The notes beneath the pieces were generated by a model that saw only the letters and a list, made by a program, of their open reading frames with translations, was not told the origin of the DNA and made no database searches. From assembly GCA_000333435.1 (NCBI GenBank), contig BADC01000538.1, positions 1 to 34,636 of the forward strand: a stretch of 34,636 nt of DNA, written 5' to 3'. This document shows positions 1 to 33,721 of this stretch, one piece after another; position 1 is the first letter of the stretch; the number at the start of each line of letters is the position of its first letter. This DNA is from Corynebacterium-like bacterium B27. Its GTDB lineage: Bacteria; Actinomycetota; Actinomycetes; Actinomycetales; Microbacteriaceae. The position numbers and the translations under genes are program-made.

Positions 1-918
1 TTGGCCGCCGCCCGCCAGGGCGATCGCGAGGTTCGCGATGGTCGTCGACTTCCCATCGCCCGGCAGGGGACTCGTGACCACGATCACCCGGGGAGGGTTG
101 TCCACATCCATGAACTGCAGATTCGTGCGGAGCTCGCGAAGCGCCTCAGCGACGGCCACGTCGTCGTCGTCGACATTCGCGTAGTAGGTTGCGCCTTCCA
201 TCGACACCAGACGGTCCTTGTCTGTGAATCGACGGTCGACCGGGATGGCCCCGACCACTGAGAGCTTGAACTCCCGTTCAACCGCATCCCCGGTCCGGAT
301 TCGTCGATCGAGCGTATGACGGATCGCGGCGTAGATTAGGCCGATGACGAGGCCCGCCAGGAGGCCGATGCCGATGGCCAGACGCGTGTTCGGCGAGGTG
401 GGGGACGACGGCAGTACAGCGGAATCGAGGGGGATAAGCTTGACGACACCCGTGGCGCTGCCGTCCGTCGGAGCACCCGCCTGATTCTCCACGGACTGGA
501 TCTGTTGCTGGATACCGCGCAACCATGCTTCGGCGAGATCTCGAGCGGTCTCCGGCGTTCCAGCCATCGCAGTCACCTTGATCAGGACAGTGTCCGAAGG
601 GTTCGTGACGCTGATCTTGCTCACCAGGGCTTCGGGGGTCGTATTCAGCCCGAGCTCGTCGATCGCGTACTGAGCAACTGCGCGCGACGTTCCGACGTCG
701 ATGTACGACTTCACCTTCGACTTGGCGAGGTTGTCGCCCACGAGCGCCGAACCGCTGTCGCTGTTCGAGCCGGCCGAGATGTAGCCACTCGAGTCGGCCT
801 CATAGACCTTGGGCTGCAGGAGCGTCCAACCGAAGGCGACCGCACCACCGATCAGCGTGAGGACGATTATCGAGATCCAGTGGGCTCGCAAGACTGCGAG
901 ATATGAACGAAGTTCCAT
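1..918 (-). CDS. Wzz-type chain-length regulator fused to BY-kinase (3' end beyond window)
   Basis: This gene reads off the left edge, so 306 codons are visible and the kinase end is missing. The ATG at 918 follows a GGGGGA Shine-Dalgarno run (925-929 on the other strand). The product starts MELRSYLAVLRAHW, has a membrane segment near residues 14-34, an extracytoplasmic Wzz-like domain with the usual PSSPTSPN motif, a second membrane segment followed by RHTLDRRIR, and then a kinase P-loop, SPLPGDGKST, with Lys290. The family controls polysaccharide chain length and export at the membrane through tyrosine autophosphorylation. It is a clear paralogue of the gene at 3246, with the same domain order and a matching P-loop. 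It is divergent from the HprK-like gene at 1083. The missing part should hold Walker A', Walker B and a tyrosine tail; I cannot tell whether they are intact. Confidence 0.9.
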   Translation of the reverse strand, partial: MELRSYLAVLRAHWISIIVLTLIGGAVAFGWTLLQPKVYEADSSGYISAGSNSDSGSALVGDNLAKSKVKSYIDVGTSRAVAQYAIDELGLNTTPEALVSKISVTNPSDTVLIKVTAMAGTPETARDLAEAWLRGIQQQIQSVENQAGAPTDGSATGVVKLIPLDSAVLPSSPTSPNTRLAIGIGLLAGLVIGLIYAAIRHTLDRRIRTGDAVEREFKLSVVGAIPVDRRFTDKDRLVSMEGATYYANVDDDDVAVAEALRELRTNLQFMDVDNPPRVIVVTSPLPGDGKSTTIANLAIALAGGGQ

Positions 919-1070
919 GCGTTTCCCCCAATTCGACGGTAACGAGGCATCCCTGAAACCTCATTGATGCCCCGTATTGCCGGGAGCGATCGGCGCACAA
1001 CCCTCCATATTGTAAACGCACTCCCATGTGGGCGTGAATTCAGCGAAATGAGCCCGCTCGACCGGTGCAT

Positions 1071-1076
1071 TATCGT
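1071..1076 (+). promoter_or_regulatory. Possible -10 box of a leaderless transcript
   Basis: TATCGT fits the actinobacterial TANNNT -10 pattern and ends exactly six bases before the ATG at 1083. No Shine-Dalgarno sequence precedes that ATG, so the mRNA may start at the start codon. The same spacing occurs before the genes at 24238 and 25778. No good -35 box is visible, and CATTAT at 1068 is an alternative. Confidence 0.35.
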
Positions 1077-1082
1077 TTCGGT

Positions 1083-2195
1083 ATGGCCGCCACGATCACC
1101 ATCTGTGCGCTCGGAGCTCGTGTCGGGGTTGAGTTCGACGAATCCGTGTCCCCGTCCGACGTCGCGCGCTTCTCGACGGCATGGGCAGGGGCCGCTGCGC
1201 CGGAAGGGCTGCGGGATGCTGATTTGCGTGTGACTCTTGGACCAGCGGCGGCACGCGGGGCGGGCGATTTCGACGTGGCGGCGGTCGGTTTCGAGCAGGC
1301 GGCTGCGGTGCTGTCGACGAAAGTGACCCTCGCGGCGATCGAATCCAACCGCGGACGCATGGTCATGCTTCACGCCTGCGGGGTCGCCACCGACGATGGC
1401 GATGTTCTCGCTTTCGTAGGCCCCTCCGGTCGAGGCAAGACGACGCTTGTTTCCCGTCTCGCACGGAAGTTCGCCTACGTCACTGACGAGACCGTGGGCG
1501 TCGAGGCTGACGGCACCGTACATCCATATCGGAAGCCTCTGTCGCGAGTCATCCCGTCTGGGACCAAAATCCAGACTTCGCCGGATGAACTCCACCTCCT
1601 GCCGCTGCCACACGTCGAACTACGTCTGGCGCAGGTCGTGCTGCTCGATCGTCAACCCGAGTGGATCGGGCCGCCAACCGTCGAGGTGCTACCCCTTCTC
1701 GATGCACTACCGCGCCTGGTACCCGAGATGAGCTATCTCGCCGACTTGCCCGACGCGCTTGCCCGGTTGGCGCGGTTGATCAGCGAGCGAGGTGGCGTGA
1801 AGGTGATGCACTACAGCGAGGCGGACACTGTCGTCGAGTCGATGCCCCAATTGCTCGACGTGGCAGGCGTTCAGGAACGGTGGGAACCGGTGCCTTTGGA
1901 ACCGGCCGACCAGTTGCCCCTGGCAGCGGGACTCGTGCGGCGAACCGCTGCCACGGACGCGCTGAGGGTCGGCGATGCACTCGTCCTGATGCACGGCTCC
2001 ATGCTGCGGGTAGTCGATGGCATCGGTCCCGTGATATGGGAGGCATCGGAGCGCTCGATCGATCTCCACGACCTGACGCGAATGGTCGTTTCGCGGTTCG
2101 GTGAGCCCGTCGATGGTGAAGCCCTCGATGCCGTGTCGAGCGCGGTCCGCGAGCTGGTCGACGCGGGCATTCTCGACATGGGGTCGGGCGCTTGA
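1083..2195 (+). CDS. HprK-related P-loop kinase with C-terminal PqqD-like domain
   Basis: A 370-residue protein. The P-loop VGPSGRGKTT at about residues 112-121 is followed by YVTDETVGVEADGTVHPYRK, which fits the nucleotide-binding core of HPr kinase/phosphorylase-related proteins. The last 90 or so residues (LVLMHGSMLRVVDGIGPVIWE, then FGEPVD and an ELVDAGIL ending) resemble a PqqD-like peptide-recognition domain. It is therefore probably a small-molecule or peptide kinase, not a true HPr kinase, since no HPr or PTS gene is near. The ATG at 1083 is preferred over the GTG at 1065 because a likely -10 box lies six bases upstream and neither start has a Shine-Dalgarno sequence. The stop overlaps the TTG start of the next gene, so the two are probably co-translated. 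The substrate is unknown. HprK relatives with PqqD-like partners occur in some exopolysaccharide and lasso peptide clusters. Confidence 0.75.
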   Translation: MAATITICALGARVGVEFDESVSPSDVARFSTAWAGAAAPEGLRDADLRVTLGPAAARGAGDFDVAAVGFEQAAAVLSTKVTLAAIESNRGRMVMLHACGVATDDGDVLAFVGPSGRGKTTLVSRLARKFAYVTDETVGVEADGTVHPYRKPLSRVIPSGTKIQTSPDELHLLPLPHVELRLAQVVLLDRQPEWIGPPTVEVLPLLDALPRLVPEMSYLADLPDALARLARLISERGGVKVMHYSEADTVVESMPQLLDVAGVQERWEPVPLEPADQLPLAAGLVRRTAATDALRVGDALVLMHGSMLRVVDGIGPVIWEASERSIDLHDLTRMVVSRFGEPVDGEALDAVSSAVRELVDAGILDMGSGA

Positions 2196-3097
2196 GCTCG
2201 GTTGAGGCTGTGGTTCGCCTGACGAATCTCGAGGCGGTGCCGTTGGCCTGTGCTCTCGTCGAAGACCGCGCGCGCCACAACGGTATCCGAGCGCTCGTGA
2301 TCAAGGGCCTAGTCATGGAGCACCACGGGCTTCGGCCGCCGCGTGCATACGCGGACGTCGATGTGTTGGTCGAGCCCGATCGACTTGGGGATTTCGTGGA
2401 GGTCCTGCGGCAGAGTGGTTGGCGCCCTCGCACGCATCTCTGGGTATTCGACCGGCTCGAGGTGCATTCGATCACGCTCATCAATGACAACTGGCCGTGC
2501 GATATCGATGTGCACGCCCACTTCCCGGGCTTCCTGGCGCAGTCGCAGACCGTGTTCGAGGAGCTTTGGCGGCGCAAACTGTCGATCGAGATCGCCCATC
2601 GCGCCGTCACCGTCACAGACGATGTCTCGAGCGCGGCGATTCTCGCCCTGCATGCTCTTCGTCGGCCGGACGTGGAACGGAATACGCGCGAACTCGCGGA
2701 CCTGACCGAAGTGCTGCGGAGCCAGCCCGACCTGGTCCGCAGGCTGTCGACTCTCGCAGCTGCCACTGGGAGCAGCGAACCGTTGCGCCCGTTGCTGATC
2801 TCATTGGGTGGCGTGATCGAGCGCGGTGAACGAATCTCGAGTCGCGATCTGCGCGCGTGGCGCCGACGAACCGCCGTGCACTCTCGCGCCGGGCAATGGA
2901 TCACGTACATGTCCCGGGTGCCGCTGCGTCGTTGGCCCCGCGAGGTGATGGTGGTCGCGTGGCCGCCGCGGAAGCTCTACCTTCAGGAGCATCCACACAC
3001 GCCGAGCGATGGCCGGACCCTGTTCATCGAGCGCAGCAAGCGAGTCTTCCGTGGACTCGTCGACCTGGCCAAGGTCGCATTCGGGGCGCGACGCTAG
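2192..3097 (+). CDS. Nucleotidyltransferase-family protein (NTP_transf_5-like)
   Basis: A 301-residue protein starting with TTG inside the TTGA overlap with the kinase stop codon. Residues near 30-60 carry IKGLVMEHHG and then RAYADVDVLVEP, the R-x-x-x-D-x-D-x-L-V pattern expected of the metal-binding aspartates in this nucleotidyltransferase family. A further WPCDIDVH segment near residue 105 could supply the third acidic residue. There is no signal peptide or membrane segment, so it should act in the cytoplasm. It is almost certainly functionally tied to the HprK/PqqD-like gene, given the overlap. The family is widespread in polysaccharide and some peptide-modification loci, but its reaction is not established, so nucleotide transfer to a sugar, lipid or peptide is only inference. 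Confidence 0.7.
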   Translation: MSSVEAVVRLTNLEAVPLACALVEDRARHNGIRALVIKGLVMEHHGLRPPRAYADVDVLVEPDRLGDFVEVLRQSGWRPRTHLWVFDRLEVHSITLINDNWPCDIDVHAHFPGFLAQSQTVFEELWRRKLSIEIAHRAVTVTDDVSSAAILALHALRRPDVERNTRELADLTEVLRSQPDLVRRLSTLAAATGSSEPLRPLLISLGGVIERGERISSRDLRAWRRRTAVHSRAGQWITYMSRVPLRRWPREVMVVAWPPRKLYLQEHPHTPSDGRTLFIERSKRVFRGLVDLAKVAFGARR

Positions 3098-4664: not shown

Positions 4665-5627
4665 CTGTCTGATTCTCCTCGTTCGCGTGGCAGGGGTCTG
4701 CGATGGCTGACGACACTGGGCCTCGGTCTGCTTGCCCTTGTCGCAGTCGTGCTCGTCATCGTCGCTGTACAGCGCCCTGATGTGAAGGACAGCGGAACGG
4801 TACCGTCGGCTCCGCAGGCGTCGCCGCGGCCGTCGGCGTCTACGCCGCCCCCGCCGACGGCGACGGCGCCGCTCGCTTCGCTCGATCTGGAGCGGTCGTT
4901 CCTGAATATGACGAACTACCCCGTCGGCGCGCGAGTTTCGCCAGGTGATTGCGATGATCCCACACGACCCGCTGCGGTGCTCGAGCTCACCACCGACGGA
5001 GGAATGACGTGGTCGCCGACGGATTTCAATGGAATCGACGTACGCGAGATCCTTGCTCTCGACGTCGTCGACTCCACTCAGATCGATGTCGTCGCCGCTA
5101 CGGGCGCCGGTTGCACCGTGACCCTTGTGTCGACTTTCACAAGTGGGCAATTCTGGGACGTGTACCCCGCCCGTCTCGTCGAGAAGACGTTCGTCGATCC
5201 TGCACGGCCCAGCGAGATCGCCCGTCAGGGAACACGTATCGCCAGTCCCTGTTCTGCTGTGTTGGAAGTTGCGGAGATCCCCTCCGGCCTGGCGGTGGTG
5301 TGCGCGGAAGGCCTGTTCGCCTCCGACAGTACGTACTCGAATTGGATTCAGATCGGGTCGATGGCTCCCGCCGGAATCGCCGTGGACGCCGCCGATGGGT
5401 CACTCTTCGGAGTTCTCGTCGGCGCCGACGATTGCGAGGGCGCGGAGGTCACGGGATATGACGGCGTGAGTGGTGCACTCACCAAGCTTTCGGCTGGCTG
5501 TCTCGCGCTTCCGCCGGCCCCAACCAACGGAGCGCTGGCGGCACAAGGCGGGTCAGTGTGGTTCTGGTCCGACTCCGGCCTCTATGTTGCGCGACCAGCC
5601 GCAACCGACTGGGCCCGAGTCAATTGA
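4665..5627 (+). CDS. Membrane-anchored secreted protein of unknown function; start codon unclear
   Basis: The product has a basic N-terminus (RSRGRGLR), one membrane segment (WLTTLGLGLLALVAVVLVIV), a Pro/Ala/Ser-rich linker and an extracytoplasmic domain of about 270 residues. TDGGMTW resembles an Asp-box, as in BNR or Ycf48-like beta-propellers, so a propeller fold is possible. Several cysteines could form disulfides. The frame is open from the TGA at 4656-4658, but no ATG, GTG or TTG occurs before 4749, and that GTG would cut the membrane segment. CTG at 4665 lies nine bases after AAGGGGTGA, a good Shine-Dalgarno sequence. A GTG at 4655 (GTGA overlap) also exists, but its frame stops after five codons; one base fewer near 4667 would join it to this ORF. 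Its place between the kinase and the sugar transferase suggests a role in polysaccharide assembly or sensing. Confidence 0.7.
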   Translation: MSDSPRSRGRGLRWLTTLGLGLLALVAVVLVIVAVQRPDVKDSGTVPSAPQASPRPSASTPPPPTATAPLASLDLERSFLNMTNYPVGARVSPGDCDDPTRPAAVLELTTDGGMTWSPTDFNGIDVREILALDVVDSTQIDVVAATGAGCTVTLVSTFTSGQFWDVYPARLVEKTFVDPARPSEIARQGTRIASPCSAVLEVAEIPSGLAVVCAEGLFASDSTYSNWIQIGSMAPAGIAVDAADGSLFGVLVGADDCEGAEVTGYDGVSGALTKLSAGCLALPPAPTNGALAAQGGSVWFWSDSGLYVARPAATDWARVN

Positions 5628-29395: not shown

Positions 29396-32300
29396 TTATC
29401 CCCGAGCCGGGCACGCGGGGAAGGGGAGGGTGTTGAATCCGATGCTGTTGGGGCCCCCGAGAATCACGATCTTCTTTGCCTGGAGGCCGGTGATGTGGTC
29501 CATCATTCCTTGGTCGAGGCACCCGTTCTGGGCGAGGAAGATGGGTGTGGCGGTGCTGTAGCCGGCGAGTACGCCACCGGCGAGTGCGTCCGGGAACGTG
29601 GCGCCTGATGCGAGGTAAACGACATCCCGGTGATTCTGCACCCGGAAGTACGCCTTCGCGGTGTTGAGCGAGACGGCGTAACGGTCGGCGCCGCTGATGC
29701 GAGTGACGGTGATGCCGAGCTTTGTCAGTTGGGTGTCGATGCCGCCACTGATGCTCGCCGCACCGCCGAATGTCGTCACCGCGGTCACGCCGCGATCACG
29801 GAGCAGTTGTCGCTCGGCGGCGGTGAATGCGGTGCGCTGACCGTCGATCAGGAGTACTGGCGCTCCAAGGAGAGCGGCGGCCGGGCTGGCACTCAGCGCA
29901 TCTGGGAAAGTACGGCCCGTCGCAACGAAGAGCCGACTCGACGGTGCTGCGCCGAACTGCGGATCTTTGATCAGATTGCGTGACACCTCGTAGCGGTCAG
30001 CTCCACCGATCCGGTGCACCTCGGCGGTCGGCACGAGGGAGTTCAGCTGGGCGATGACGTCGGCTGTCAGCGTGTTGGCGCCGCCCAGCACGACGATGTC
30101 GCTGGGATTCAGCCGACCGATCTCGCTTGCGACGGAGTTCGGAATTGACGCCCGTGACGACAGCAGCAGCGGGGCGTCGTGCTGTGCGGCGATCGCCGAA
30201 CCGCTCAGGGCGTCGGAGAAGTTCTCACCGCTTGCCAGATAGACCAGGGCAGAGCCGTTCGGTGCGACCCGCTGCGAGATGAGTGCGGATTCTTCGTAGC
30301 GGTCGGCGCCGGCGATGCGTTCCACCGAGGGCGGCGGAACAGGAATGAGGAGCGTTGCCGAGGACTGGGAAACGCTCGGGTAGCCGCTCTTGCTGCCCGT
30401 TACCGTGACGCCGATCTTCTTCCCGGCGTCCACCGTCTGCAGGACGTACGTTGCCGATGTCGCACCAGAGATGAGCGTGCCGTTCCTGGTCCACTGATAA
30501 CTCAGTGTCACCGGAGCAGGACCCCACGTGCCAGCATTCGCGGTGAGCGTCGACCCAATCGCTGTGTCACCGTCAATGGTGGGCTTCGGCGTGGGGCTCA
30601 ACCCGCGAGTTACGGTGACGGGCGCCGACTCGACTGTGGCGACTCCGTTGACTGAACTGGTTGCGGTGACAGCGAATGTGATCGTGTGGCCGACATCCGC
30701 TTCCGTGGGCGAGTAGTCCAGACCCGTCGCACCCTCGATCTGCGCATAGTCACGGCGCCATTCATAGCGAACATTATCGGGCACCGGTTGCCAGGCGCCC
30801 GGGGAGGCCGTCAATGTCTGTCCGACCACAGGCGAACCTTCGATAGCCGGATACGGTGTGCTGGTATAGGTGTCTCCGCGAGTGATTTGAAGGTCGAGAT
30901 TGGCGGGAGTGTTCCGTTCGACGACAAAGACCTTCGTGCCAGAGCCGAGCGCCGTTGACGGGTATTCGTAGTCGAAGTCGCCTTGTATGTTCTCCCACGA
31001 CGAAACGTTATAGCTCGTGGCGTAGCCGTCATCAGTCCGCGGCGGGGCGATGCGAATCACGTAACGCCCTGGAGGCACCCGCAATTCGTAGTGACCAGAC
31101 GCATCGGGATGAGTTCCTCGGCTCCACGAATAAGGCAGTTCAAGGTCGGGGAAGAGTTCGGAAACGGCGTGAAAAGAGATCGAGAACTTCGTGATATCGC
31201 CTTCCACAGGCGCCGATCGAGTGAGCGTGCCAGAGATGAGCGTGAAGGCGTCCAGTGGGAAGTCGACGTCAGTGAGTTCCTCACCGCTCTCTACAGTGAC
31301 GGTTGGACCAGCGGTCTTCAGGTGCCACCCCTTGGTTTGGTCGCTCGGGGTCCCGACGAGACTCCACGTGCCGGCGGGAACTCCCGTGATGCGGTAGTGG
31401 CCCTGATAGTCGCTCAGCCCGGACAGATTCGTGAGACCTGATTCATCGGACGGGAACGCCGGACTTCCGACTACCACCCCGGGAAGCGGCGTGCCGTCCG
31501 CCGCAAGAACGGTGCCCGAGATAGAGCCCGCCGTTTCCAGCGCCGCATCCACATCTCCGATGCTCTGGGCGGAAGCGACAGTGATCGGCTCGGTTTGAAA
31601 TGCAACGAATGCGCCCAACGGGTCGAAGAAGGTCATCCGGTAGGAACCGATCGTTGCCCCTCGGAGGACGTACCTCCCGTCGGCGCCGGTGACCGCGCTC
31701 TGCCCGAGACGATGCACCTCGATGCCGGAAAGAGCTTCACCAGTTGCTTTTGACGTCACGGTGCCCGAAAGTACTCCCGGCGAGTTCAGAACGAGATGCA
31801 CGGGGTAGGCCTGCCCTATGACCACGTTCGGCAATTCGACGTATGCCGTGCCGCTGCCCTCAAGAGTGACCTGCACGCGGTAGCTTCCGGCGGTGAGACC
31901 CACCAGCGTGAACACTCCCTCGGCGCCGAGGGTGCGGCTCGTCACCACGTACGAACCCTGGCTGACCGTCAGGGTGGCGCCGGCCACGCTTTTACCGTTT
32001 GTCTGGACGACGGTCCCGTCGATGCGAGCGCCGAGCGGGACGGTGACGTTCACGACGTTGCTTGTGGACGGATTGGGGACGATCGGGCTGACCGAGGCGG
32101 GAAGGTAGCCGCTGTTGGTCGGAGGTGTCACGGACAGCTTGTAACCGCTTGAAAGTAGCGGCACCCCGTACAAAGCGTACTCACCGGATGCGTCGGTCGT
32201 GGCCGTCCACGTTTGGCTGTTGGCGTCTGAGGACAACCTCGCGGTGGCGCCGGCGATCGGTGGCGCAGACGCGTCGCTACCCGAGACGACCCCTGATATC

Positions 32301-32440
32301 GTGACGGTCGGCTCGACAGCGGCCGCCGACCATGCTCCGATCGGCGAGAAAAACGCCAGAACCAAGGCGATCAGCGTCGCCCCCACTATGGCGGCCTTGA
32401 TCATCCGCCTGCTTTCGCGCAGCGTTCCGGTGCGGCTCAT
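29396..32440 (-). CDS. Large secreted protein with carboxypeptidase-regulatory-like, Ig-like and three CWB2 domains
   Basis: A 1014-residue exported protein. The signal peptide (RRMIKAAIVGATLIALVLAFFS) is followed by several carboxypeptidase-regulatory-like beta-sandwiches (about 45-520) with SGxVxxxxGxPLxGVxV-type starts and DxxGxYxxxGVPxGxY-type ends. Two Ig-like repeats (about 530-700; PAIEGSPVVGQTLTASPGAW and PTIDGDTAIGSTLTANAGTW) are related to those of the gene at 7316. Three CWB2 repeats lie at about 707-805, 809-905 and 913-1014, each with RIxGADRYE/A and FPDAL or FSDAL motifs. CWB2 repeats bind cell-wall polymers noncovalently, so the protein is a probable surface adhesin or scaffold. 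The ATG at 32440 follows GGGGG. No enzyme domain is seen. Confidence 0.92.
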   Translation of the reverse strand: MSRTGTLRESRRMIKAAIVGATLIALVLAFFSPIGAWSAAAVEPTVTISGVVSGSDASAPPIAGATARLSSDANSQTWTATTDASGEYALYGVPLLSSGYKLSVTPPTNSGYLPASVSPIVPNPSTSNVVNVTVPLGARIDGTVVQTNGKSVAGATLTVSQGSYVVTSRTLGAEGVFTLVGLTAGSYRVQVTLEGSGTAYVELPNVVIGQAYPVHLVLNSPGVLSGTVTSKATGEALSGIEVHRLGQSAVTGADGRYVLRGATIGSYRMTFFDPLGAFVAFQTEPITVASAQSIGDVDAALETAGSISGTVLAADGTPLPGVVVGSPAFPSDESGLTNLSGLSDYQGHYRITGVPAGTWSLVGTPSDQTKGWHLKTAGPTVTVESGEELTDVDFPLDAFTLISGTLTRSAPVEGDITKFSISFHAVSELFPDLELPYSWSRGTHPDASGHYELRVPPGRYVIRIAPPRTDDGYATSYNVSSWENIQGDFDYEYPSTALGSGTKVFVVERNTPANLDLQITRGDTYTSTPYPAIEGSPVVGQTLTASPGAWQPVPDNVRYEWRRDYAQIEGATGLDYSPTEADVGHTITFAVTATSSVNGVATVESAPVTVTRGLSPTPKPTIDGDTAIGSTLTANAGTWGPAPVTLSYQWTRNGTLISGATSATYVLQTVDAGKKIGVTVTGSKSGYPSVSQSSATLLIPVPPPSVERIAGADRYEESALISQRVAPNGSALVYLASGENFSDALSGSAIAAQHDAPLLLSSRASIPNSVASEIGRLNPSDIVVLGGANTLTADVIAQLNSLVPTAEVHRIGGADRYEVSRNLIKDPQFGAAPSSRLFVATGRTFPDALSASPAAALLGAPVLLIDGQRTAFTAAERQLLRDRGVTAVTTFGGAASISGGIDTQLTKLGITVTRISGADRYAVSLNTAKAYFRVQNHRDVVYLASGATFPDALAGGVLAGYSTATPIFLAQNGCLDQGMMDHITGLQAKKIVILGGPNSIGFNTLPFPACPARG

Positions 32441-32601: not shown

Positions 32602-33585
32602 TCAGCCCGCGGCGCAGGCCGTGAGCGACTCCACTGCTGCCGAGAGCGAGTTCTCGCCGCCCAGCAGGGTCACCCGCGTCGCGCCCAGGGCCGCGATCTG
32701 CGCCAGCGTCTCCGCCGGAACACAGGTGCCGGGCACCGTGAACAGCGGGCCGCCCACCTTCGGCGCCAGGGCCGAACCGGCCAGCGCGTCGGGGAAGTTC
32801 GCGCCCGTCGCCAGCAGCACGCGGTCGGCTGCGGTGAAGAAGTGCGCGTTGATCGCCTGCGACGCGGCGTAGCGGTCGGCACCGCCGAGTCGCACCGTGG
32901 CCGCGACCTGCTGTGCGTCAGCCTCGATACCGGGGGAGACGGATGCCTCGCCACCGGCGATCACGATCGACGTGACCCCCAGGTCGGTCAAGAGCGCCGT
33001 CGTGTCGGCGTCGAGGCCGTCGGCTGCACCGTCGACCAGGATGACCGGACCGGCGGCGCCGATCGCGGCACCGGCGGAGAGAGCATCCGGGAAGTTGCGG
33101 CCCGTCGCCAGCACCGCGGTGCTCGCGCCTGACGGGAACGCGGCTGCTGCCACGGCCCGCGAGGCCGCGAAGCGATCCGCGCCGCCCAACCGGGTGACCG
33201 GTGCGATGGTGCCGAGCTCCGTGCCGACCGCCGCGCTCACGCTCGACGTTCCGCCCACGATCACGATCGACGCGGGGTCGAGCCGCTCGATCTCGGCCTT
33301 CACCGCTGCGGGCAGCGAATCGGCCGGGGTGAGCAGCACCGGTGCTCCCGACTTCGCGGCCGCGGGGGCTGCGGAGAGGGCATCCGGGAACACCGCGCCG
33401 GATGCGACGTACACGGCCTGGACGCCGGGCGCGAACCCGTCCTTCGACGCGTTCACCGCGACCTCGTAGCGGTCTGCGCCACCGATGCGGTCGACCGCAG
33501 GGCCGACCGTCACGGGCACCGACGCCGTGAACCGCGAACCGGCTCCCGTCGCCGTGAAGGCGGCCGGGCCGAACGACGCGTCGGC
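32602..33585 (-). pseudogene. 5'-truncated CWB2 (cell wall-binding repeat 2) gene
   Basis: Three CWB2 repeats are present, with RIGGADRYEVAVNAS, RLGGADRFAASRAV and RLGGADRYAASQAI as their starts and FPDAL in each. The frame remains open to a GTG at 33630, but the N-terminus so gained (MPVMKLAPGPLRKSTADAS) has no signal peptide and is antisense to a short-chain dehydrogenase end. A secreted CWB2 protein without a signal is not expected to work, so I read this as the 3' part of a longer gene, cut at about 33575-33600. Base composition is higher in GC than that of the CWB2 gene at 29396. It ends with a terminator-like hairpin. It could still be expressed if read from another promoter. Confidence 0.65.
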
Positions 33586-33721
33586 CGTGCTCTTTCTGAG
33601 CGGGCCCGGAGCGAGTTTCATCACCGGCACCGAGCTGATGGTCGACGGCGGCTACTCCGCGATGGGGCCCGAGGGTCTGGGCGACAGCGCCCAGTTCGCC
33701 GGAACGGATGCCGGCTCCTGA
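33579..33721 (+). pseudogene. 3' fragment of a short-chain dehydrogenase/reductase gene
   Basis: The plus-strand frame ends SAVLFLSGPGASFITG, then TELMVDGGYSAMGPEG and a short tail to the TGA at 33719-33721. The pattern FLxxxxASFITGxExxVDGGY is the C-terminal signature of classical SDR oxidoreductases. Upstream, the same frame becomes antisense to the CWB2 gene, so the Rossmann and catalytic (Tyr-x-x-x-Lys) parts are absent. About 45 residues of an expected 250 remain. The left limit is approximate. Confidence 0.7.

Follow-up and report, generated by a model that had tools for sequence, protein, structure and literature searches.

A kinase–nucleotidyltransferase pair of actinomycete polysaccharide loci, its association with a distinctive Tat signal, and a possible role in labelling exported proteins

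The window analysed here, 34,636 nucleotides of contig BADC01000538.1 from Corynebacterium-like bacterium B27 (Microbacteriaceae; assembly GCA_000333435.1), contains near its start a gene for an HprK-like kinase with a PqqD-like tail (K) and, overlapping it, a gene for a nucleotidyltransferase (N), next to genes of a polysaccharide locus. Domain identities, linkage and genome distribution were computed for this pair, for a discrete PqqD protein (B) encoded outside the window, and for a peculiar twin-arginine translocation (Tat) signal found on many exported proteins. The association of K, N, B and the signal is well supported, and it suggests a protein substrate for the two enzymes.

A kinase carrying a leader-binding domain, and its partner

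The open reading frame of K extends from 1065 to 2195 and codes for 376 amino acids from a GTG start. An earlier note on this DNA had taken ATG 1083 as the start codon, but GTG 1065 fits better since, among the matches listed, several relatives begin with (M/V/L)(H/R)Y, as does the protein translated from that codon. The P-loop GPSGRGKT occupies residues 119-126, and the catalytic-type residues H103, G124, K125, T127, D141 and E142 are invariant in an alignment of 13 proteins. While the family model TIGR04352 (HprK_rel_A) matches K below its curated cut-off of 200 bits (E 8e-5, 21.8 bits), residues 4-316 of the predicted structure (pLDDT 91) superpose on phosphoenolpyruvate (PEP) carboxykinase with Z 14.7 and a root-mean-square deviation (r.m.s.d.) of 4.4 over 255 aligned residues. 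Judged by its modelled fold and its Walker A motif, K is a P-loop kinase of the PEPCK/HprK fold, which together with the invariance of H103, K125, D141 and E142 bears out its previous description as HprK-like.

The tail of K is only a marginal match to the PqqD family by sequence (PF05402, E 0.06, 14.1 bits, below the gathering cut-off of 23.4). Modelled alone, it forms a winged helix of three strands and three helices with a pLDDT of 95, whose best match in the PDB is TbiB1, the RiPP recognition element (RRE; RiPP, ribosomally synthesised and post-translationally modified peptide) of a lasso peptide system with its leader bound (Foldseek TM-score 0.76, E 1.0e-3). Superposition on TbiB1 aligns 85 of the 87 residues (Z 10.0, r.m.s.d. 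2.7), and the ten best structure matches are mostly RiPP proteins. In addition, a profile of the tail aligns with that of the discrete PqqD proteins from the same genomes (hhalign 94%, E 1.4e-7), and its best sequence match in the PDB is LppB (9x8z, E 3.4e-4). The PqqD-like C-terminus proposed earlier is thus recovered by structure prediction as an RRE fold. According to the accessible text of PMC13381572, D70 of LppB hydrogen-bonds a Tyr of the leader; in the 11 fused tails this position is L or A, as far as a hand alignment over two steps can place it, which would fit Trp rather than Tyr. The fusion itself is not the unusual variant it had been taken for, as an RRE is fused to or abuts K in 27 of 27 K loci on a first locus map and in 8 of 14 on a map of named genomes.

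N belongs to the NTP_transf_5 family (PF14907, E 9e-13, 48.8 bits, above the gathering cut-off of 31.2), with the catalytic-type residues K38, G39, D55, D57, D106 and H108 invariant in an alignment of 12 proteins. Its TTG start at 2192-2194 overlaps the TGA stop of K at 2193-2195, and both the family and the overlap were correctly read in the earlier note. The linkage of the two genes, likewise claimed there, extends to other genomes, and because both recur together the pairing is not due to chance. Within the genus, K and N are adjacent in four genomes (G000, G001, G005, G013) and otherwise lie about 4-28 kb apart; since the pair is mostly separated by such distances, operon structure alone cannot explain their joint inheritance.

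A Tat signal that accompanies the pair

Proteins encoded in the neighbourhood of K, N or B have in common a Tat signal whose hydrophobic region is unusual, RR-x6-[AG]-[AV]-W-[SAT]-x-P-[VA]-[IV] ... P-[AL]-x-A-x-[ST], referred to below as the WxxP signal. The 97 proteins that carry it, collected with a profile in which the W, P and S columns were masked, split into 58 families by their mature parts (blastp, 1e-3), so that the signal itself is what they have in common. Their mature parts range from 97 to 580 amino acids; two of the 97 have a C-terminal segment resembling a transmembrane helix, and none has an LPxTG motif. Among 93 distinct signals obtained with the masked profile, W is kept in 89 of 93, the first P in 90 of 93 and the second P in 91, and Ser or Thr follows the cleavage site in 88 of 89, these fractions being upper estimates, with loci picked by a profile that contains W and P. 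None of the NCBIfam or Pfam models represents the signal among the Tat-type proteins scanned, the best NCBIfam match having an E of 0.039 and the Pfam matches being marginal or lying on the mature part. WxxP was found in none of the 15 readable signals among 17 matches to an ordinary Tat model in six congeners without K, two matches at contig edges having been left out and some of the others having high E values and perhaps not being real. The two beta-helix proteins of the window itself likewise have RR signals without WxxP. On the map of named genomes, which holds at least 19 loci among the matches listed, at least 7 of 14 K loci have one or more signal genes in the fetched DNA, five loci without any profile match (L089-L093) being excluded from this count. 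The absence of a precursor noted earlier holds for the window but fails beyond it, where Tat-exported proteins encoded on another contig and genome-wide are candidate substrates.

Two loci deserve mention for their signal genes. In Demequina activiva (L080:11133-13131), K and its RRE are immediately followed by four tandem WxxP Tat genes, an arrangement that resembles a compact RiPP cluster. In another locus two long WxxP Tat proteins are encoded behind K (L068:14382-16241 and L068:16917-18638), which by eye resemble propellers of RCC1-type repeats.

With respect to the distribution among 119 relatives, K (at least 46 bits) is present in 10 of 16 congeners and in 7 of 103 other genomes (G022, G033, G059, G088, G098, G099, G100). 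N was detected in these 10 congeners as well as in all seven K genomes outside the genus, though with only 45-50 bits in G099 and G100; outside the genus it is also seen without K in G036, G053 and G056 (44-63 bits) and in G093 and G105 (about 20 bits). B is found in the same 10 of 16 congeners, generic PqqD matches being more widespread outside the genus. The signal is present in exactly the 10 K-positive congeners, in 7, 10, 5, 13, 13, 30, 27, 11, 11 and 24 copies scattered over the genomes, and a profile search found it in none of the six K-negative ones. Outside the genus all seven K-positive genomes carry it, and G082 and G096 each have a single weak copy.

The association was also followed in an even draw of 296 genomes from the class, of which 13 have K at 200 bits or more, with a gap in the scores from 203 to 64.8 bits. 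At E <= 1e-5 the signal is found in 15 of the 296, including all 13 with a strong K, and at E <= 0.001 in 20; the 283 genomes without a strong K account for two and seven of these, respectively, each with a single copy of at most 28.8 bits. All 11 K genomes that remain after the two genomes that contributed to the signal profile are dropped carry the signal, six of them within 3 kb of K or N. N reaches 130 bits or more in 12 class genomes, 11 of them with K, and the remaining two K genomes, G193 and G250, have a weak N encoded next to a signal gene. The discrete PqqD (E <= 1e-4) occurs in 43 class genomes, 33 of which lack a strong K; since generic PqqD proteins are this common, they are informative only by their place near K or N. 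Six genera that contain genomes both with and without the system are concordant, the numbers of positive and negative members being 10 and 6 in g1, 2 and 5 in g89, 7 and 7 in g129, 1 and 1 in g180, 1 and 2 in g66, and 1 and 1 in g69; for g89, g129 and g180, which belong to the class draw, this holds at E <= 1e-5. In a draw of 168 genomes from the phylum, some of them from the class, the signal was found in G000 and G088 and weakly in G485 (22.4 bits). Apart from the discordant genomes, a shared targeting region on unrelated proteins is thus tied to one enzyme set. A diverged cluster in G149 (C236:389-1679) combines a weak signal (E 7.8e-4), a K-like gene (60 bits) 0.3 kb away and a PqqD gene within 1.3 kb.

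The surrounding polysaccharide locus

The coordinates of the genes at the locus are collected in Table 1. A profile of the discrete PqqD has no match in the window, and the gene sits instead on C573, a second contig of the same genome, where the order is signal peptidase I, an AraC-type regulator, the Tat-signal protein, PqqD, a low-molecular-weight (LMW) phosphatase and finally the 3' portion of the Wzz/BY-kinase gene whose 5' portion lies at the start of the window. About 85 codons are absent between the two pieces of the Wzz/BY-kinase gene, and from locus L064, which has the same order from PqqD to K, we infer that C573 adjoins the contig of the window.

Table 1. Coordinates of the pair and of associated genes; positions without a contig name refer to the window.
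Feature	Position	Strand	Remarks
K, P-loop kinase domain (PEPCK/HprK fold by model)	1065..1931	+	residues 1-289 of 376
C-terminal RRE (PqqD-like) domain of K	1932..2195	+	residues 290-376 plus stop codon
N, NTP_transf_5 nucleotidyltransferase	2192..3097	+	TTG start overlaps K stop
Wzz/BY-kinase of the module, 5' part	1..918	-	Wzz PF02706; gene runs off the contig start
B, discrete PqqD	C573:2453-2767		L102, the window's own genome
WxxP Tat-signal protein	C573:1649-2380		L102, the window's own genome

B, a protein of about 98 amino acids first seen by neighbourhood comparison, matches PF05402 on C573 with 48.1 bits, above the gathering cut-off of 23.4, and its family profile matches TbiB1 with E 1.9e-8; the discrete PqqD of a congener matches TIGR04353 weakly and below the cut-off. 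B and N share one reading frame in L068 and L211, and in L207 the genes for Wzz, B, K with its RRE, a Tat protein whose signal is a weak match, and N follow each other in this order on one strand within 4.5 kb. The signal peptidase on C573 is of bacterial type (TIGR02227, 110.8 bits, cut-off 47; TIGR02228, 18.6 bits, cut-off 51.85), and every one of the ten positive congeners has a signal peptidase I gene near K (L102, L055-L057, L059, L061-L064, L111). Most of the mapped loci contain a Wzz/BY-kinase in the vicinity of K or N, and an LMW phosphatase is common. The polysaccharide locus described earlier as the setting of the pair is confirmed.

The locus is not, however, a correlate of K and was rejected as such: its marker WbaP is present in 16 of 16 congeners, whereas K, N, B, WxxP Tat proteins, the signal peptidase LepB and the phosphatase were not found in the 15-20 kb around WbaP in four K-negative congeners, where the WbaP-prop5-Wzz core is intact and only one Wzz was found. 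The K module therefore appears to be an optional extra, added to a polysaccharide locus of general occurrence.

Further genes at these loci were recorded in passing. The gene at 4749-5627 of the window belongs to a family, with marginal NHL/BNR matches, found beside Wzz and WbaP in K-positive and K-negative congeners alike. Towards the end of the window, the gene at 29396-32440 codes for cell-wall-binding repeats (CWB2), and that at 32602-33630 for repeats that resemble them by translation alone. A proline-rich protein with a motif close to IPAVDIFAPFYPPSSGxARDLxPLxLGG ahead of a hydrophobic segment adjoins Wzz in five loci (L057:6002-7156, L060:12209-13546, L062:3-875, L063:17745-18959, L071:4512-5900); its profile has no match in the window.

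Proposed function, related systems and alternatives

It is reasonably probable, in our view, that the K-N pair is the catalytic core of an RRE-guided labelling system that acts on exported proteins. K would bring its own RRE in the form of the PqqD tail, and N would often be served by the discrete PqqD encoded beside it. The RREs may bind W-x-x-P-x-[I/V] in the hydrophobic part of the Tat signal, which would then double as a leader. K is predicted to phosphorylate the near-invariant Ser or Thr after the AxA cleavage site, and N might add a nucleotidyl or sugar cap to the phosphate. The Tat pathway would subsequently export the folded, modified protein, signal peptidase I would cut it, and the product would bear an N-terminal phospho- or phosphoglycan label. 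In the least certain part of the proposal, the label probably keeps the proteins within the exopolysaccharide or on the cell surface, a retention that is suggested because the carrier proteins lack recognisable anchors and the module holds an extra Wzz/BY-kinase with a phosphatase. The earlier note as a whole is borne out in part: its enzyme identities and its locus stand, and so does, as a proposal, its guess that a small protein might be tagged, while the rarity of the fusion and the absence of a precursor do not; nor is a sugar or lipid-carrier acceptor favoured, as the presence of the genes follows a protein signal rather than the polysaccharide locus itself.

The closest known relatives of such a system are the linear polyphosphorylated peptides (LPP), RiPPs described from Bacillota (Popov et al. 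2026, PMC13381572). In the accessible text of that source, RREs of the lasso and LPP kind bind the leader motif [Y/W]xxPx[L/V/I/F/A], those of paeninodins preferring the W form, LppK phosphorylates Ser3 of the LPP core, and LPP and paeninodins are called restricted to Bacillota. The W-x-x-P-x-I/V of the signal fits this motif class in its W form. Both systems combine an RRE, an HprK-like kinase, an NTP transferase and a signal peptidase I gene in polysaccharide loci, and the acceptor Ser (S3) near the start of the processed LPP product has its counterpart in the Ser or Thr after the cut. In contrast, the system described here occurs in Actinomycetes, has its RRE fused to the kinase and comes with a bacterial-type LepB instead of the SipW-like, archaeal-type peptidase of LPP; and where LPP has one to three clustered precursors of the form YxxPxVLxHQxIxFETxxS, a pattern for the core of which was found in 0 of 46 sources, it has WxxPx[I/V] in the Tat signals of dispersed exported proteins. 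As for the MsbA-like exporter of LPP, no ABC transporter was seen among the window genes that a Pfam scan covered (22 of 27), and the ABC signature, a crude pattern, matched in 2 of the 46 sources. In paeninodin and pseudomycoidin biosynthesis (PadeK, PsmK, PsmN) the kinase likewise phosphorylates Ser, and the nucleotidyltransferase homologue PsmN is required for hexoses on the phospho-Ser of pseudomycoidin, as the accessible part of PMC9266682 describes. Unlike in lasso pathways, neither a macrolactam (Asn-synthetase-like) cyclase nor a B2 peptidase was seen in the same 22 of 27 window genes, the scan having been confined to the window; no lasso precursor was seen, and the modification is predicted to lie at the N-terminus of exported proteins. 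The enzymes are of known kinds and, by analogy, would work like LPP or paeninodin tailoring enzymes. The HPr-rel-A system pairs the same families (the TIGR04352 kinase and the TIGR04353 PqqD family), to both of which there are weak matches here below the cut-offs. To our knowledge, no substrate has been named for it. Exosortase/PEP-CTERM systems also have a short homology region on many unrelated exported proteins, a single enzyme set and a place in polysaccharide loci. They differ in relying on a membrane transpeptidase, where here an N-terminal Tat signal would be read by an RRE and acted on by a kinase and a nucleotidyltransferase. There is a fair chance that a dispersed signal-peptide code of this type is a kind of its own. 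A literature search, outside of which lay most subscription journals and all bioRxiv preprints, found no published link between RREs or HprK-like kinases and Tat signals and no description of such a labelling of surface proteins.

Given that clusters for LPP and paeninodin within capsule loci have the same set of RRE, HprK-like kinase and NTP transferase (PMC13381572, in its accessible part), K and N might instead modify an unseen short peptide of LPP or lasso type encoded in the locus, with the Tat proteins being merely co-inherited matrix proteins. We regard this as unlikely, because the Tat proteins share the signal itself, with its RRE motif, over 58 mature families, and no cyclase or B2 peptidase family turned up in the window genes scanned. 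A short precursor was itself searched for and rejected: the LPP leader pattern YxxPx[VLI]Lx[HN]Q occurs in 0 of the 46 sources, and the only lasso-type match lies inside a long frame in L067; a CxxxCxxC pattern, matching 41 frames, was uninformative.

The signal peptidase I near K in 10 of 10 positive congeners, and an extra tatC copy near K in six of these, would also suit a dedicated Tat translocase or signal peptidase of the module that reads WxxP while K, N and B act elsewhere in the pathway. This is improbable, as the motif is one that RREs bind and RREs belong to the set, and as K, N and the signal are present in G005, G006, G014 and G022, where no linked tatC was found, and in G000, where no tatC was found at all. 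TatC was rejected as an obligatory partner on the same six-in-ten count. A direct control of the polymer by K and N, with K phosphorylating or regulating the Wzz/BY-kinase or a lipid-linked sugar and PqqD being a leaderless docking domain, would agree with the Wzz/BY-kinases and phosphatases near the pair but is improbable, since the locus with Wzz and WbaP exists without K, N or B in congeners and the match with a dispersed signal peptide is left unexplained.

Several observations nevertheless weigh against RRE-guided labelling of exported proteins. The signal profile A3, whose matches served to fetch the proteins, derives for the most part from genes in the vicinity of K loci, which makes the conservation of the motif partly circular, and the Fisher p-values for the class at E <= 1e-5 (6e-21; 3e-18 without the two profile donors) are descriptive, related genomes being non-independent. 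The Ser or Thr after the cut could reflect a preference of signal peptidase, and the W and P could reflect the specificity of Tat or of the peptidase. Beside N in G350 (L196:6140-10429), with a signal gene 0.21 kb away, I or L replaces W while P is kept, and in L207 of G332 the W is displaced. G332 was counted as positive on one signal of 28.7 bits, no stronger than those of the outsiders G082 and G351, mainly because this signal sits between K and N. In genus g68, where G099 has K and the signal and G115 has neither, G082 has a weak signal without K, and an N homologue of 134 bits (G176:C18:1446-2339) lies in a genome where neither the signal nor a strong K is found. Weaker, diverged matches to K, which score 35-65 bits and probably represent other HprK/RRE systems, occur in 19 class genomes, 18 of them without the signal. 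Among the matches listed, seven genomes (G022, G099, G206, G242, G289, G395, G403) have no signal gene within 10 kb of K or N. Of the 35 loci with N, only 14 have B no more than 250 bp away from it, and the discrete PqqD was found in 10 of the 13 class K genomes and not in the other three. Finally, LppN showed no activity in a heterologous host (PMC13381572, accessible text).

If the labelling of exported proteins by K and N is nonetheless taken as the preferred reading, it would provide a candidate substrate, and hence a function, for the trio of HprK-like kinase, PqqD/RRE and NTP_transf_5 protein that recurs in polysaccharide loci, and it would carry RRE-guided modification beyond small, clustered peptides to exported proteins whose genes are dispersed over the genome. 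It also predicts a class of signal peptides that can be recognised from sequence, and it offers natural substrates on which to test nucleotidyltransferase activity, given that LppN showed none in its heterologous host. If the label ties proteins to exopolysaccharide, this would be a new route of matrix building in Gram-positive bacteria. In its furthest extension, which we hold to be possible but somewhat short of even chances, a proteome-wide sorting code would exist in Actinomycetes, with a Tat leader read by an RRE and K and N building an N-terminal phospho-glycan on dozens of anchorless proteins that are thereby fixed to exopolysaccharide; if true, this would amount to an anchoring of proteins to polysaccharide unrelated to sortase and exosortase.

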